Positions 8,583 through 32,649 of a stretch of 64,000 bases of DNA are shown piece by piece. Both the position numbers and the translations under genes were made by a program. How positions within the stretch are numbered: the first letter of the stretch is position 1; each line of letters starts with the position of its first letter. The stretch comes from Streptomyces sp. NBC_01197 (GTDB lineage: Bacteria > Actinomycetota > Actinomycetes > Streptomycetales > Streptomycetaceae): positions 4,698,501 to 4,762,500 of the forward strand of contig NZ_CP108569.1 in NCBI RefSeq assembly GCF_036010505.1. The letters are read 5' to 3'. Below the pieces are notes generated by a model. It ran no database searches and was not told the origin of the DNA. It saw nothing but the letters and a program-made list of their open reading frames with translations.

Positions 8583-9922
8583 CGTACTGGCTGGAACACG
8601 CCTGGCTCGACACACATGTCGAGCCAGGCGTCGTCCTGGAGACCGGCCAGGGCCGGATCACGGCCGTCCGCAAGGAGGTGCCGGCCCCGCCGCCCGGTGC
8701 GACGGCCCTGCGCGGTCTGACCATCCCGGGCCTGGCGAACGCCCACAGCCACGCCTTTCACCGCGCCCTGCGGTCCGCAGCCCAGGTCGGCTCCGGCACC
8801 TTCTGGACCTGGCGCGACGTCATGTACGGCGTGGCCGCCCGGCTGACCCCGGACACCTACCACGCGCTCGCCCGCGCGGTGTACGCCGAGATGGCGATGG
8901 CCGGGATCACCGTGGTCGGTGAATTCCACTATGTGCACCACACGCCGGGCGGCGCCCCCTACGACGATCCGAACGCGATGGGCGAGGCGCTGATCGCCGC
9001 CGCCGCCGACGCCGGCATCCGCATCACCCTCCTCGACACCGCCTACCTGGCGTCCGGGATGATCGACAAGTACCGCAGCGCGGAGCCCGAGAAGCACCAG
9101 CTGCGCTTCTCCGACGGCTCGGCGCAGAGCTGGGCCGAGCGGGCCTCCCTGCTGAAGGACCGCGATCACGCCCGGATCGGCGCGGCCGTCCACTCCGTGC
9201 GGGCGGTCCCGGCCGACCAGCTCGCCACCGTGGCCGCGTGGGCCGAGAGCCGGCAGGCCCCGCTGCACGTCCACCTCTCGGAGCAGACCGCCGAGAACGA
9301 GTCCTGCCTTGCGGCGCACGGCTGCACGCCCACCCGGCTGCTCGCCGACCACGGAGTGCTCGGGCCCCGCACCGTCGGCGTCCACAACACGCACCTCACC
9401 GACGAGGACATCAGCCTCCTCGGCTCCTCGGGGACCGGCACCTGTATGTGCCCCACCACCGAACGCGACCTCGCCGACGGCATCGGCCCCGCCGTCCGGC
9501 TCCAGCACGCGGGCAGCCCGCTCTCCCTGGGCAGCGACAGCCACGCCGTGATCGACATCCTCGAAGAGGCGCGCGCCCTGGAGCTCAACGAACGACTGCG
9601 CTCGCGCACCCGCGGCCACTGGACGGCGGCGGCCCTGCTGCGCGCGGCCACCTTGGACGGGCACGGCGCGCTCGGCTGGTCCGAGGGCGGCGTCATCGAG
9701 ACCGGCGCGCTCGCCGACCTCACGACGATCGCACTCGACACGGTCAGAACAGCGGGCCCCGTACCGCGACTCGGAGCGGAGACCGCGGTATTCGCCGGCT
9801 CCGCAGCGGACGTACGCCACACGGTCGTGGGCGGCCGCCATGTCGTACGCGACGGAGTCCACGCACTGGTCCCGGACGTCCCGCACGCGCTGGCCGAGTC
9901 GATCGCGGCGCTGCGTCCCTGA
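8573..9922 (+). CDS. hutF: Formimidoylglutamate deiminase
   Basis: A 449-aa amidohydrolase-superfamily enzyme that converts N-formimino-L-glutamate to N-formylglutamate and ammonia. The metal-binding H-x-H is in GLANAHSHAFHRALR (about residue 60); later ligands are in HVHLSEQ and VHNTHLTDEDI, and the catalytic Asp region is SLGSDSHAVIDILEEAR. The GTG start at 8573 overlaps the end of the upstream hydrolase gene by 10 bp, so the genes are cotranscribed. Its presence means this organism uses the two-step formylglutamate route rather than direct HutG-type formiminoglutamase. Confidence 0.92.
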   Translation: MQVTYWLEHAWLDTHVEPGVVLETGQGRITAVRKEVPAPPPGATALRGLTIPGLANAHSHAFHRALRSAAQVGSGTFWTWRDVMYGVAARLTPDTYHALARAVYAEMAMAGITVVGEFHYVHHTPGGAPYDDPNAMGEALIAAAADAGIRITLLDTAYLASGMIDKYRSAEPEKHQLRFSDGSAQSWAERASLLKDRDHARIGAAVHSVRAVPADQLATVAAWAESRQAPLHVHLSEQTAENESCLAAHGCTPTRLLADHGVLGPRTVGVHNTHLTDEDISLLGSSGTGTCMCPTTERDLADGIGPAVRLQHAGSPLSLGSDSHAVIDILEEARALELNERLRSRTRGHWTAAALLRAATLDGHGALGWSEGGVIETGALADLTTIALDTVRTAGPVPRLGAETAVFAGSAADVRHTVVGGRHVVRDGVHALVPDVPHALAESIAALRP

Positions 9923-9954
9923 CCCCGTACCCGTACACGTAGGAGCACACCGCG

Positions 9955-11133
9955 ATGACGAACCCCGCCACCGCCCTCACCCACATCGGCAGTCTGGTCA
10001 CCAACGACCCCTCCCTCGGGGACGGATCCCCGCTCGGTCTGATCCAGGACGCGGCGCTCGTCATCGACGGCGACCGCATTGCCTGGGTCGGTGAATCCAG
10101 CAAAGCACCCGCCACTGACAACGCGGTCGACGCGGGCGGCCGGGCGGTGATCCCGGGGTTCGTCGACTCGCACTCGCACCTGGTCTTCGCGGGCGACCGG
10201 ACGGCCGAGTTCAACGCGCGCATGTCGGGCCGCAGTTACTCGGCGGGCGGCATCCGCACCACGGTCGCCGCCACCCGCGAGGCCACCGACGAACAGCTGT
10301 CGGCGAACGTCGCGGCGTACCTCCACGAGGCGCTCCGCCAGGGCACCACCACGCTGGAGACGAAATCCGGCTACGGCCTGACCGTCCAGGACGAGGCACG
10401 GGCCCTGCGGATCGCGGCCCGCCACACCGAAGAGGTCACCTACCTGGGCGCCCACATCGTCCCGCCCGACTACGCCGACGACCCCGACGGGTACGTCGCC
10501 CTGGTCACCGGCGAGATGCTCGACGCCTGCGCGCCGCACGCGCGCTGGATCGACGTGTTCTGCGAGAAGGGCGCCTTCGACGGGGACCAGGCCCGCGCGA
10601 TCCTCACCGCGGGACGGGCCAGGGGCCTGCATCCGCGCGTCCACGCCAACCAGCTCGGTTACGGGCCGGGAGTCCAGCTCGCCGTCGAGCTGGACGCCGC
10701 TTCGGCCGACCACTGCACCCATCTCACCGACGAGGACGTCACGGCCCTGGCCGACGGCGACACCGTGGCCACGCTGCTGCCGGGCGCCGAGTTCTCCACC
10801 CGCGCAGCCTGGCCGGACGCCCGCAGACTCCTCGACGCGGGGGTGACGGTCGCGCTCTCCACCGACTGCAACCCGGGCTCGTCGTTCACGTCCTCCATGC
10901 CGTTCTGTATCGCCCTGGCGGTACGGGACATGGGGATGAGCCCGGACGAGGCGCTCTGGGCGGCAACGGCGGGCGGCGCGCAGGCGCTGCGCCGTACGGA
11001 CATCGGCCGGCTCGTGCCGGGGGCCAGGGCGGACCTGACACTGCTCGACGCCCCGTCCCACGTCCACCTCGCCTACCGGCCCGGTGTCCCGCTGGTCTCG
11101 GGGGTGTGGCAGCGCGGAACCCGGGTGGTCTGA
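9955..11133 (+). CDS. hutI: Imidazolonepropionase
   Basis: Third step of histidine degradation: hydrolyses 4-imidazolone-5-propionate to N-formimino-L-glutamate. The protein has 392 aa, normal for the family. Metal ligands are in [13 protein letters not shown]; further motifs are [33 protein letters not shown] and [18 protein letters not shown] ribosome-binding site precedes the ATG. It is the last gene of the hut operon, 32 bp after hutF, and is followed by a strong hairpin. Confidence 0.96.
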
Positions 11134-28532: not shown

Positions 28533-29552
28533 ATGGAGGATCAGGAACAGCAGACGCAGACGCCGGGGCGGTTCTTCATCAATGTGCAGCGCCGGGACGA
28601 CCCCGTATCCGAAGTCACCGAGCTGGATGCGATGGCCTCGGCGCGCAAGTACGGCGAGATCGTGGTCCGGGGGCCGCTCTTCGGCTTCGCCGAGCAGCGG
28701 CGTGGTGAACGGCCCCGGTGGCGGCTGCTCGGCGGGATGGACACGGGGTATCCGCAGGACGCCCGGGACGAACTCAACTCGTATCTCTGGCTCAAGGCCA
28801 AGGACGAGACCGACGATCACCTGGAACGGCGCGAACTGCTCGCGGCGGTCGCCCGGTTGGAGACCGAGCCGCTGAACGCCGTGTCCGCCTGGGGTACGCG
28901 CTACCGCATCGTGCGCGCCGACGAGTTCGCCAGGATCGGCGGGGGCCGGCTGGAGCCGCCGAGGCCCACCGACGTCGATACGGACGGCTGGGACGAGCCG
29001 CGCGTCCGCCCGGTGCCGCGCACCAAGGGCTTCGTGATCGACCACAGCGCCGCGGTCGGGCTGACCGAGGGCCTGGACCGGGCCGGCCTGCTGCCGCTCT
29101 CGTACACCTCCCGGCGCTTCCCGCCCGACGTACTGGCGGACTCCCGGCGTGCGGTGACGACCCACCCCGGCCTGGTGCTGCTGCCGGTCGCCTTCCGGAT
29201 CATGGAGCACAAGGAGCACACCTGGTCGATGGTGGGCGCGCAGTGCGTCACCCCCCAGGAGGCGCGGCGCTGGCTGGTGCACTACCTGACCGAGTCGCTG
29301 CCGATGTTCGGGAACATCAGCGAACGGGACGCCGAGGTGTACGCACGGGCGGCCGGGCGGTTCACCCAGCAGCGCAGGCCCAATGAGCTCCGGGTGCGCG
29401 GACGTTGCTTCCAGATCGTCCGGGTGGAGCGCATGATGCGCATCGGCCCGGACGGCCCCGAGCCCCCGCGGCGCTCGGACACGGACATCCAGGAGCCCAT
29501 CAAGATCCGCCCCACCATGGACGAGTGGGGCACGATCACGCACGGGGAGTAG
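28533..29552 (+). CDS. DUF5954 family protein
   Basis: A 339-aa soluble protein with no signal peptide or membrane segment. Two similar halves appear to carry related strands (WGTRYRIVRADEFARIG near residue 120-140 and VRGRCFQIVRVERMMRIG near 285-305), suggesting an internal duplication. I believe it belongs to DUF5954, a family largely restricted to Streptomyces, but this is from memory. CACACT ends 6 bases before the ATG and no ribosome-binding site is present, so the mRNA may be leaderless. Function unknown. The stop at 29552 originally lay next to the terminator now split by the insertion element. Confidence 0.6.
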   Translation: MEDQEQQTQTPGRFFINVQRRDDPVSEVTELDAMASARKYGEIVVRGPLFGFAEQRRGERPRWRLLGGMDTGYPQDARDELNSYLWLKAKDETDDHLERRELLAAVARLETEPLNAVSAWGTRYRIVRADEFARIGGGRLEPPRPTDVDTDGWDEPRVRPVPRTKGFVIDHSAAVGLTEGLDRAGLLPLSYTSRRFPPDVLADSRRAVTTHPGLVLLPVAFRIMEHKEHTWSMVGAQCVTPQEARRWLVHYLTESLPMFGNISERDAEVYARAAGRFTQQRRPNELRVRGRCFQIVRVERMMRIGPDGPEPPRRSDTDIQEPIKIRPTMDEWGTITHGE

Positions 29553-29560
29553 CCCGGGCG

Positions 29561-29571
29561 GACGGAGCAGG
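29561..29571. repeat. Left copy of the 11-bp target duplication
   Basis: GACGGAGCAGG, identical to 30637-30647 on the far side of the element. The right copy is part of a terminator stem, so this left copy was created by the insertion. Confidence 0.85.
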
Positions 29572-29632
29572 ACAATGCAGTTGTCTTTGAGTAGCGGAGA
29601 TCGTTGCCCCGCGTGTGACGGGGTGGGGCGCG

Positions 29633-30130
29633 GGCCAGCGGGTGCGAATTGGGACCCTGACGAAGGTGTTCACCGCCGAGCTGGTCGATGCGGAGTAGCC
29701 AAGCACGACCGAGCCGAGCGGCGCCGCCGACTTCCCTGCCGGGCCGATCAGGTCGCACCGGAGGGCGTCCGGCTGGAACTGTGGGCCTACTTCGCGGTCA
29801 CCACGCGATCCGCAAGTTCGCTCACACAGCGGCGCTCGCCCGCCCCGCCGTGGACGCCGACCGCATTTCCGACCTGAAGTGCGTCCGCAGCATCCCACCC
29901 CAGCTCGGAGCGACCGACGCCAGGCTCACCCGCTCCTTCACTGAGGCCAGGCAGGAGGCACGCGCGCGCCTCCTCCCGGCCCGGCGCAATCGGGACTGCC
30001 CACGCGCGGTACAAGAAGCCGAACCGATAGCCCGTGCTGAGGACCCGCGCCAGACGCGGCACCGTGCAGCCCGGCCGTTGGGCCCACAATCAGTCCAGGA
30101 AGCCGAAGAGCACCTGCCGGGTCGAAAGGC
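29633..30130 (+). pseudogene. IS4-type transposase remnant
   Basis: The N-terminal part reads GTLTKVFTAELVDA, then a one-base shift leads to VAKHDRAERRRRL; most of the catalytic core is missing. The frame resumes with GVRLELWAYFAV, shifts again to HHAIRKFAHTAALARPAVD and continues with DADRISDLKCVRSIP and EARARLLPARR, all typical of the end of Streptomyces IS4-type transposases. At least two frameshifts and a large internal deletion make it non-functional. Only about 150 of an expected 400 or so residues remain. Confidence 0.75.
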
Positions 30131-30160
30131 CGACTCAGAGAAGCACCAACCCCCACCGCC

Positions 30161-30544
30161 CTAGAGCAGGTACTGGGCGTCCCCGTTCCCGAGCGACCAG
30201 TCGGCATCGGTGTTCTCGGTCAGCACGACGAACACGTTGCGGGGTTCCGTCCCCGCGTATTCCTGAGCGAGCTCGGCAATACGTCGGTACAGCGCCTGCT
30301 TCTGGGCGGCCGACCGGCCACCCCGCAAAGTGATCGCCACGTACACGATGCCGTCGTCCCGCTGCACGTCGAGGTAGGTGCCGTGACGCAAAACGCTGCG
30401 TTCCCCGTCGTGTCCGGTGAGGATCTGGAAACGATCGTCGTCCGGGATCCCCATCGTCTCGCCCAGCGCCTCCTGGACGGCGCGCCCCAATGCCTTCAAT
30501 CGCTGGGCGTCACAGCCCAGAACATCGATGCGAACGAGCGGCAT
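30161..30544 (-). CDS. Tautomerase family protein, inside the insertion element
   Basis: A 127-aa protein of the 4-oxalocrotonate tautomerase superfamily. After Met removal the N-terminus is Pro (MPLVRIDVLG), the catalytic base of the family. Later segments VYVAITLRGGRSAAQKQALY, IAELAQEYAG and RNVFVVLTENTDADWSLGNG fit the longer tautomerase_2 type that has two beta-alpha-beta units in one chain. An AGGAGG ribosome-binding site precedes the ATG at 30544, and a near-perfect palindrome lies upstream. It sits wholly within the terminal repeats of the IS and is intact while the transposase is decayed, so it appears to be under selection. The substrate is unknown. Confidence 0.85.
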   Translation of the reverse strand: MPLVRIDVLGCDAQRLKALGRAVQEALGETMGIPDDDRFQILTGHDGERSVLRHGTYLDVQRDDGIVYVAITLRGGRSAAQKQALYRRIAELAQEYAGTEPRNVFVVLTENTDADWSLGNGDAQYLL

Positions 30545-30579
30545 GGAGCCTCCTGGGGAGATCGGCAATGCGACACCGA

Positions 30580-30601
30580 GTGTACGTACCAGTAGGTACA
30601 C
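30580..30601. promoter_or_regulatory. 22-bp near-perfect palindrome upstream of the tautomerase gene
   Basis: Nine of eleven base pairs match, with outer arms GTGTAC/GTACAC and inner TAC/GTA. It lies 36 bp before the tautomerase start and about 20 bp inside the right end of the IS. The form suits an HxlR- or TetR-type operator. No such regulator is linked. Confidence 0.55.
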
Positions 30602-30636
30602 ACGACGTGCGAGTGCCGCCTAAAGCAACTGCATTG

Positions 30637-30680
30637 GACGGAGCAGGCCCCCGGGCCGGGGTCCGGGGGCCTGCTCCGTC
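30637..30680. terminator. 18-bp-stem hairpin carrying the right target duplication
   Basis: The stem GACGGAGCAGGCCCCCGG (30637-30654) pairs perfectly with 30663-30680 around an 8-base loop. It terminates the LCP gene on the minus strand and, before the insertion, would also have served the DUF5954 gene. Its first 11 bases are the target duplication. Confidence 0.85.
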
Positions 30681-30746: not shown

Positions 30747-32006
30747 CTAGTTACCCGAAACCGTCACCGTGTCGTCGTCCTTCAGCTCCTGCACCAGCTG
30801 CTTGACCTTGGTCTTGTCCCAGACCAGATTGCCGCCGGTGGAGCCGGAGATCGGCATGTTCATCTGCTTGCCGTCACCGCCCGACACACCCTTCATGGCC
30901 CAGAACATGGATGCCAGGTTCCACAGGCTCATGTCCTTGTCCACGATCAGCGTGTCCAGGCCCGCGCCCATCACCGGGTAGAGCTTGAAGGGGTTCATGA
31001 TCGTGGACGGGGTGGCCGTCTGGGAGGCCAGGGCCGCCAGGAACTTCTGCTGGTTCTTCGTGCGCTGCAGGTCGCTGGCCGCGAAGGCGTGCCGGGTGCG
31101 GACGAAGGCCAGGGCCTGGCTGCCGTTGAGGGTCTGCTTGCCCGCCGGGAAGTCGGCGCCGGAGTCCTTGTCCTTGAACGCCTGCGGAATGTCCATCTGG
31201 ACCCCGCCGACCGCGTCCACGATGCTTGCGAAGCCGTCGAAACCGATCTCCGCGTAGTGGTCGATGTGCAGCCCGGTGTTGTACTCGATGGTGCGCACCA
31301 GCAGCTCCGGGCCGTCCTCCGCGTACGCGGCGTTCAGCTTCGTCTGCCGGCCGGTGTTCGGGTAGAGCTTGCCGGACGACGAGCCCTTGTACGACGGGAT
31401 CGTGACGTTCGAGTCACGGGGCAGCGAGACCATCGTGTTCCCGTGGTCACCGACGTGCAGGATGATCATGGAGTCGGTGCGCTTGCCCTCGGCGGAGCCG
31501 GTGTGCAGCTTCTTCTTGTCGGCCGCGGACATGCCGTCGCGGCTGTCCGAGCCCACGATCAGGTAGTTCGTGCCCTTGCCCGTGGCGGGACGGTCGATGA
31601 CCTTGGACAGGTCGACCTCGCGGCGCAGCTTTCCGTCGGCCCAGAAGTACGTACCGATGGAGACGCCGAGGATCGCGATCACCAGGACCAGCGCGCCGAT
31701 CTTGATGCGGCGGCGCCAGTTCGGGGGGGTGCCCGGACGTGTGGTGGGGTACGGGCCGCCAGCGCCCTGGCCGCCCTGGCCTCTCCGGCTGCCGGGGCCC
31801 GAGGGGCCACCCTGCCCGTAGACCTGGCCCGTGTTGTAGCCACTGTCGTACGCGGAGTCGTATCCGTTGTCGTAACCCTGGTCCTGCTGCTGTCCGCCGT
31901 ACTGCCGCTGGGCAGGTGGCGTCGAACGCTGCACGTGCCGCATGACCCGAGCACCGTCGGGCTGTGCGTTCTCGCTGCCGCGTCCGTAGCGGTCCCTGTC
32001 GTCCAT
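30747..32006 (-). CDS. LytR-CpsA-Psr (LCP) family protein 1
   Basis: A 419-aa membrane-anchored enzyme. LCP proteins move glycopolymers from polyprenyl carriers onto peptidoglycan. It has a long Gln/Gly/Tyr/Asp-rich cytoplasmic N-terminus (about 1-95), one TM (about 98-120) and an extracellular LCP domain with NYLIVGSDSRDG, DSMIILHV, TMVSLPRDSNVTIP, RQTKLNAAYAEDG and ALAFVRTRHAFAASDLQR. There is no LytR_C domain. In the minus-strand reading CACACT ends 7 bases before the ATG, with no ribosome-binding site. It is divergent from the thioesterase gene. Substrate polymer unknown. Confidence 0.92.
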   Translation of the reverse strand: MDDRDRYGRGSENAQPDGARVMRHVQRSTPPAQRQYGGQQQDQGYDNGYDSAYDSGYNTGQVYGQGGPSGPGSRRGQGGQGAGGPYPTTRPGTPPNWRRRIKIGALVLVIAILGVSIGTYFWADGKLRREVDLSKVIDRPATGKGTNYLIVGSDSRDGMSAADKKKLHTGSAEGKRTDSMIILHVGDHGNTMVSLPRDSNVTIPSYKGSSSGKLYPNTGRQTKLNAAYAEDGPELLVRTIEYNTGLHIDHYAEIGFDGFASIVDAVGGVQMDIPQAFKDKDSGADFPAGKQTLNGSQALAFVRTRHAFAASDLQRTKNQQKFLAALASQTATPSTIMNPFKLYPVMGAGLDTLIVDKDMSLWNLASMFWAMKGVSGGDGKQMNMPISGSTGGNLVWDKTKVKQLVQELKDDDTVTVSGN

Positions 32007-32124
32007 GTGGACCAGTGTGCCGTCACAGTGCGTATGTATTACAGGGCGGGTGTGGAATCGGGGCTGTGCTGTTGCAGAGCTGATGCAAAGTGCCGGGCTG
32101 CGGGCCCGGCCTAAGCTGGCACGT

Positions 32125-32649
32125 ATGACAGATCTTCCGGGCAAGCCCACCTCGGCCTCACGAACCACCCTGAGTCACATCATGACGGGCAATGACACCA
32201 ACCTCCTCGGTACCGTGCACGGTGGCGTGATCATGAAACTGGTGGACGACGCGGCCGGCGCCGTGGCCGGCCGGCACTCCGGCGGGCCCGCGGTCACCGC
32301 GTCGATGGACGAGATGGTCTTCCTGGAGCCGGTCCGCGTCGGTGACCTGGTCCATGTGAAGGCTCAGGTGAACTGGACCGGCCGGTCGTCGATGGAGGTC
32401 GGCGTACGGGTCCTGGCCGAGCGGTGGAACGAGTCGTCCCCGGCCCAGCAGGTCGGCAGCGCCTATCTGGTCTTCGCCGCGGTCGACGCGGACGGCAAGC
32501 CCCGGGCCGTACCGCCGGTGGTCCCCGGCAGCGAGCGCGACAAGCGGCGCTACCAGGAGGCGCAGATCCGCCGCACGCACCGGCTGGCCCGGCGCCGCGC
32601 GATCAAGGAGCTGCGGGAGCGGCACCTGGCCGACGGCATCGACGACTGA
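32125..32649 (+). CDS. Acyl-CoA thioesterase (hotdog fold)
   Basis: A 174-aa hotdog-fold thioesterase of the YciA/cytosolic acyl-CoA hydrolase type. The diagnostic segment is GTVHGGVIMKLVDDAAGAVAG with the HGG and active-site Asp; the second strand part is EMVFLEPVRVGDLVHVKAQV. A basic C-terminal helix (RRTHRLARRRAIKELRERH) is typical of the actinobacterial members. TAAGCT (32112-32117) ends exactly 7 bases before the ATG, a leaderless promoter arrangement. It is a single-gene unit between two LCP genes; chain-length preference is not readable. Confidence 0.9.
   Translation: MTDLPGKPTSASRTTLSHIMTGNDTNLLGTVHGGVIMKLVDDAAGAVAGRHSGGPAVTASMDEMVFLEPVRVGDLVHVKAQVNWTGRSSMEVGVRVLAERWNESSPAQQVGSAYLVFAAVDADGKPRAVPPVVPGSERDKRRYQEAQIRRTHRLARRRAIKELRERHLADGIDD

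Follow-up and report, generated by a model that had tools for sequence, protein, structure and literature searches.

How did an intact tautomerase gene come to lie between the ends of an insertion sequence (IS) whose transposase is broken, and was it carried there as cargo? The question is raised by a 64,000-nucleotide stretch (C1:4698501-4762500, hereafter the window) of the 7.7-Mb genome of Streptomyces sp. NBC_01197, in which an earlier note had seen a unit of about 1 kb composed of terminal repeats and cargo. The unit occupies 29574-30635 (1062 bp), between a DUF5954 gene upstream (28533-29552, plus strand; Pfam PF19379, E 4e-107) and a LytR-CpsA-Psr family gene downstream (30747-32168, minus strand; Pfam PF03816, E 3.2e-46; a listed ORF with a provisional start). 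Its left end (IRL, AATGCAGTTGTCTTTGAG, 29574-29591, plus strand) and right end (IRR, TAAAGCAACTGCATT, 30621-30635, plus strand) are both intact and are identical to ends of sister elements. They are flanked by direct target repeats, GGACGGAGCAGGAC at 29560-29573 and GGACGGAGCAGGCC at 30636-30649, which agree at 13 of 14 positions and enclose the tautomerase gene. The extent of the proposed unit was thus borne out by matching ends and direct repeats.

Short repeats are common in hairpin arms, and the target repeat lies in one, so the terminal repeats might be chance matches around an ordinary resident tautomerase gene. This reading, to which we attach a negligible probability, is refuted by the ends themselves, by a transposase remnant at the left end and by empty sites in other genomes. 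The window's ends also bound full-length sister elements, and a search of the host genome for the end pattern, with at most one mismatch allowed, finds only the window's two ends and one further site with one mismatch, so chance is excluded as the source of the terminal repeats. Two loci with both flanks were found for comparison (L142 and L143). In genome G023 (L142), both flanking genes are present (91% and 96% match) with neither IS nor tautomerase; 142 nt separate the matched flank segments, versus 1180 in the window, and this empty site holds a hairpin, ACAGGCCCCCCGAGC...GCTCCGGGGGGCCTGT, similar to the window's. In G005 (L143), the flank matches are 76 nt apart, and IS and tautomerase are both absent. 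The gene thus lies inside IS boundaries, as the earlier note had maintained, and the finding that would have spoken against this, a tautomerase gene at the locus in relatives without the IS, did not turn up in these two genomes.

The coordinates also confirm that the tautomerase gene sits between the dead transposase and the right terminal repeat, on the opposite strand. The remnant (29642-30164, plus strand) was compared with an IS4-family transposase gene on the Streptomyces yangpuensis plasmid NZ_CP102515.1, to which 29567-29740 and 29740-30132 are 88.6% and 82.2% identical in DNA, respectively; 849 bp of the plasmid record are absent between these two segments, placing a deletion of about 849 bp, which removed the catalytic core, at 29740. 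No reading frame is open throughout, and a C-terminal ORF of 158 aa (29688-30164) survives. An open relative, P0001, is a single-ORF IS4 transposase (NCBIfam transpos_IS4_1, E 2.6e-65; Pfam Nterm_IS4, E 6.7e-28) with the motifs D119-76-D196-106-E303 and YREK YRERWEIELAFDEIK, whose spacings agree with D(60-110)D(100-150)E and Y(2)R(3)E(6)K. The part deleted from the remnant is inferred to span the positions of D119, D196 and E303, and in the window the IS4 DDE and YREK motif residues are deleted.

As described in PMC2266710, members of the IS4 subgroup have the end signature -AATR--------WTW----, direct repeats of about 10-13 bp, a single-ORF transposase with DDE and YREK motifs, a typical size of 1400-1650 bp and, in some cases, strong target-arm specificity. 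Read from one base before AATG, the window's ends fit this signature (left, C-AATG-CAGTTGTC-TTT; right, C-AATG-CAGTTGCT-TTA). The direct repeats of the clade, 12-14 nt when measured from AATG and two fewer if the first base is counted to the IS, fit the subgroup's range. By these sequence criteria, the window element is assigned to the IS4 subgroup of the IS4 family: its ends, its repeats and the motifs of its relative are those described for the subgroup, whereas its sisters reach about 6 kb as complete cargo-bearing elements and the window copy itself measures 1062 bp with a broken transposase.

The tautomerase gene (30161-30544, minus strand) encodes 127 aa of a malonate semialdehyde decarboxylase-like protein. 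Its ORF is intact, with an ATG at 30542-30544, a stop codon at 30161-30163 and a proline directly after the methionine. It matches Pfam Tautomerase_2 (E 1.6e-25) and Tautomerase (E 5.3e-16), and among solved structures it is best matched by malonate semialdehyde decarboxylases (PDB 3mjz, E 5.1e-19). A ribosome-binding site, AGGAGG, is seen at 30549-30554 (minus strand), and an operator-like palindrome, TGTACCTACTGGTACGTACA, at 30581-30600 (minus strand); all these features of the earlier description held up. Palindromes like TGTACCTACTGGTATGTACA (up to three mismatches, within 160 nt) lie upstream of 19 of 29 tautomerase relatives (L112-L140), among which the form is TGTACCTACT(G/A)GTATGTACA (19/29), which we take to resemble a TetR-type operator. 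The window's palindrome differs from this form at 1 of 20 positions, and it was thus retained with a single change, so the cargo comprises the gene together with its control region. The stop codons of tautomerase and transposase overlap in one CTAG (30161-30164). The transposases of L034 and L004 likewise end in CCCTAG, whereas the nearest tautomerases have other endings, so the joint between IS and tautomerase probably lies at that stop.

The earlier note had further proposed selection for the cargo. Pairwise dN/dS of the window tautomerase is 0.087-0.132 against its five nearest relatives. Across 28 of the 29 relatives (a length filter removed L128) it ranges over 0.087-0.323. Six of the 94 residues invariant in the five relatives are altered, and synonymous changes occur at nine codons identical in them. 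Ratios and codon changes fit purifying selection in the family as read from sequence comparison, but they do not single out the period since capture. Seven relatives were used to define invariant columns over the final 400 nt of the remnant; the window is changed at 20/263 of these (about 7.6%; 2/274 to 16/288 in the relatives), and the changes fall on codon positions as 9/103, 7/104 and 4/56, so the third position is not favoured, but some open relatives are likewise little biased. The clearest sign of selection is qualitative, namely that the transposase core is lost while the tautomerase is whole, and selection on the window tautomerase is likely rather than proved.

The expectation that the same ends would enclose a tautomerase gene at several sites did not hold. 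Tautomerase matches occur in 117 of 392 genomes of the genus, the host included (E <= 0.001), and among the 30 protein-match loci examined only the window's own has IS ends (0/29 for the others). Paired IS ends were likewise found at none of 26 DNA-match loci, some of which are the same places as protein-match loci, nor at the plasmid locus L036, with flanks scanned for about 1.5 kb per side. A search of plasmids for a second tautomerase-bearing copy yielded 12 matching records, none covering at least 80% of the query. Movement of the tautomerase cargo was therefore not observed.

Sister elements show what this type of IS can carry. A scan with P0001 of a collection in which 84,980 species are represented by one genome each gave 47 loci; named relatives of the window's IS are mostly from Streptomyces, and the clade is sparse, the left-end pattern occurring in 20 of 392 genomes of the genus. 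Together with plasmid and genus loci, the scan loci yielded 28 dereplicated elements with both ends, after exclusion of L160, L162, L163 and L164 (on the same contigs as L058, L042, L045 and L048), L034 (the same element as L038), and L051 and L176 (left ends less than 20 nt from a contig end). Direct repeats, scored at variable length with a cut-off of 4 (L050, with 10/13, enters at 4 but not at 5), reached a score of at least 4 in 24 of the 28 and at least 9 in 20. Mismatched flank pairs from different elements reached 4 in 76 of 756 cases and 9 in 13, partly because GGCCTTCGCCGGCC recurs as a target. Direct repeats were absent from the remaining four both-ended elements (L033, L049, L037 and L060), and the end pairings of L037 and L060 are probably spurious. 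L033:1494-3511 and L049:5779-7421 have inverted rather than direct repeats in their flanks, as if an inversion had joined halves of two hairpin targets. At L090:601-1997 and L091:1501-2897, sisters of another type have the ends AATGCCGTTG / CAACGGCATT, spaced about 1.4 kb apart. Copies of the left end also occur at mirror positions near both chromosome ends in G124 (C1, 15369 and 8920706) and G159 (C1, 34960 and 9607886), where they presumably sit in terminal inverted repeats.

We defined the slot as the DNA that separates the transposase match from the right end. It measures at least 400 nt in 19 of the 24 elements with ends and direct repeats, the window included, with L173 uncertain and with L043 and L059 among those whose figure takes in an unmatched transposase tail; shorter slots have 0 nt (L045, L053), 18 nt (L055), 169 nt (L178) and 196 nt (L050). 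The contents vary widely: a Ribosomal_L12 (L7/L12-like) ORF in L038, with a 94.5% identical counterpart in L064 under different repeats; DUF4262 in L048; DUF6461 in L058; pentapeptide repeats in L044; PG_binding_1 in L040; and a short-chain dehydrogenase accompanied by TetR in L056 or by an MmyB-like regulator in L059. Loci with a right end only hold an epimerase and Dabb (L072), DUF6882 (L075) and RibD_C (L077). Slot ORFs tested in L039, L051 and L054 had no match at E <= 0.01, and no ORF in the slots of L033, L041, L042, L050 and L062 exceeded the cut-off of the codon score. A HEAT-like gene (155-157 aa; weak HEAT match in L052) is found in four loci (L047, L052, L057 and L161), three of which are complete elements with differing repeats (GGTATCGGCAGGCC in L052, GGCCTCCACAGGCC in L057 and GGCCGGCCCAGGCC in L161). 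The proposed recurrence of ends plus cargo at several sites is thus found for a sister cargo, and the reading of the window unit as a miniature transporting IS is sustained insofar as sisters hold other genes in the same slot, but not by any second site for the tautomerase itself.

Taken together, the window unit is very probably a stranded, non-autonomous remnant of a cargo-carrying clade of the IS4 subgroup. Elements of this clade, in Streptomyces and its relatives, have room for a gene behind the transposase stop, ahead of a right end that measures only about 15 bp, and slot DNA moves along with the element, as the recurrence of the HEAT-like cargo shows and as is likely for the tautomerase. 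One element would have captured the tautomerase gene and its control region, in convergent orientation to the transposase, and would then have inserted into the hairpin between the DUF5954 and LytR-family genes, a step to which the repeats and empty sites testify, duplicating 12-14 bp of target. The transposase core was probably lost afterwards while the tautomerase was kept open. At present the element is probably immobile because it lacks a matching transposase; the best IS4-like transposase in the host genome, among the 4 of 28 candidates scored, is 37% identical.

The lack of any other IS-tautomerase combination would also suit a different history, in which the element landed here first and the tautomerase joined it later, through a recombination event that took out the transposase core as well, so that the gene never transposed as cargo. 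We regard this as improbable: the gene sits exactly in the slot that sisters use for cargo, about 420 nt separate the transposase deletion at 29740 from the tautomerase joint, and neither syntenic relative (L142, L143) has a tautomerase here. A rather better case, though still an uncertain one that we would not bet on, is that the unit arrived already without its transposase, driven in trans by a full-length sister as a mobile insertion cassette. Both of its ends are intact, and a short two-ended derivative exists elsewhere, at L173:2785-3570 (786 bp, repeats 11/12), where only transposase residues 1-34 are recognisable and which is non-autonomous. On the other side stand the changes in the remnant, about 7.6% at invariant columns (20/263), and the change at 1 of 14 repeat bases, with which decay after arrival is equally possible.

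Several named systems resemble the element preferred here, a remnant of a cargo-carrying IS. In the IS231 subgroup of the IS4 family, as presented in PMC2266710, variable passenger genes lie inside the IS ends, between the left end and the transposase; the window's clade shares the family and the changing passengers, but its ends have AATG and its cargo lies between transposase and right end, whereas IS231 ends begin with CAT and its hosts are mostly of the Bacillus cereus group. Membership of that subgroup was rejected on the ends and on the position of the cargo behind the transposase. The term transporter IS (tIS), as used in PMC3129680 and PMC9330008, denotes IS copies with passenger genes unrelated to transposition. 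The sisters fit the term, and the window has such a passenger inside its ends, but differs in lacking a working transposase (about 849 bp, including the core, are missing). In this it is like the cassettes without transposase that PMC3129680 names mobile insertion cassettes, being composed of IS ends and cargo without a functional transposase. A composite transposon likewise mobilises genes by IS ends and was rejected because the host genome has a single pair of ends and no second IS copy flanks the tautomerase.

The targets of the clade tend to be G+C-rich hairpins. The window's target repeat forms the base of the left arm, off-centre, of a terminator-like hairpin of 21 bp (30637-30680; two 21-nt arms, 95% complementary, with a 2-nt loop). 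In 16 of the 24 rebuilt empty sites, the repeat sits at the centre of an unbroken stem of at least 6 bp, versus 18% of local controls, and 14 of the sites fold more stably than 95% of local controls. The window site has a centred stem of just 3, a value reached by 90% of local controls, and its folding energy is at the 5.5% mark. Many targets have the form GGGGGCC-N6-GGCCCCC, which resembles an intrinsic terminator without its T-run. No paper on this clade or its hairpin targeting was found in the literature searched, and the clade may well include an already named member.

The history of the slot was examined in a midpoint-rooted tree of 31 transposases, whose branchings are given without support values. 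The cargo-less L055, L053 and L049 fall outside, the cargo-less L045 and L046 beside one cargo clade, and the remaining cargo-bearing elements in inner clades. L048 (DUF4262), L058 (DUF6461) and L033 (a 156-aa ORF below the coding cut-off by codon score) share 92-93% of their transposase DNA and have unlike slots, and the slot of L041 is a shortened form of that of L058 (pieces 87% and 92% identical). In the cargo-less L045, L046 and L053, the stop codon TAA lies inside the right end (TAAAGCAACTGCATT), and among cargo elements the sequence just inside this end varies from cargo to cargo, which suggests that the requirement at the right end is about 15 bp. In L041, the right end passes into an inverted left end, with agreement at 19 of 24 inner positions (7.1 +/- 3.0 in cross pairs), and the right end of L058 equals the left end of L033 at 25 of 26 positions, with an ungapped score over the whole inner 24 nt of 10, not above chance. 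Judging from three sister loci, cargo would probably be exchanged when a second copy in the same hairpin lends an end and the DNA between becomes cargo.

Tentatively, and at slightly less than even confidence, we suggest that the clade is a natural single-gene shuttle: an open slot before a right end of about 15 bp, genes replaced among elements with about 93% identical transposase DNA, terminator-like hairpin targets that limit harm, swaps by end lending, and decay that leaves the cargo as a chromosomal gene. Simple insertion sequences of this type appear to act as gene carriers, which extends passenger genes to a second subgroup of the IS4 family and to a new position, behind the transposase. 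Elements without cargo, with cargo, with changed cargo and with the transposase lost form a series on which the capture of genes by simple insertion sequences can be tested. Small accessory genes may use this as one of their routes across Streptomyces chromosomes and plasmids, via probably harmless hairpin sites. Annotators of Streptomyces genomes should note that a gene adjoining an IS4 transposase may be part of the IS.

Two arrangements of ends were also observed in individual sisters. At L041:7850-7889, the right end reproduces a left end in inverted orientation over about 40 nt. At L044:5933-10048, a single target repeat is shared by two members of the clade that meet head-on and differ in their cargo regions; the second, in the opposite direction, has an IS end at 8981 and, at 9689-10048 on the minus strand, transposase residues 339-457.
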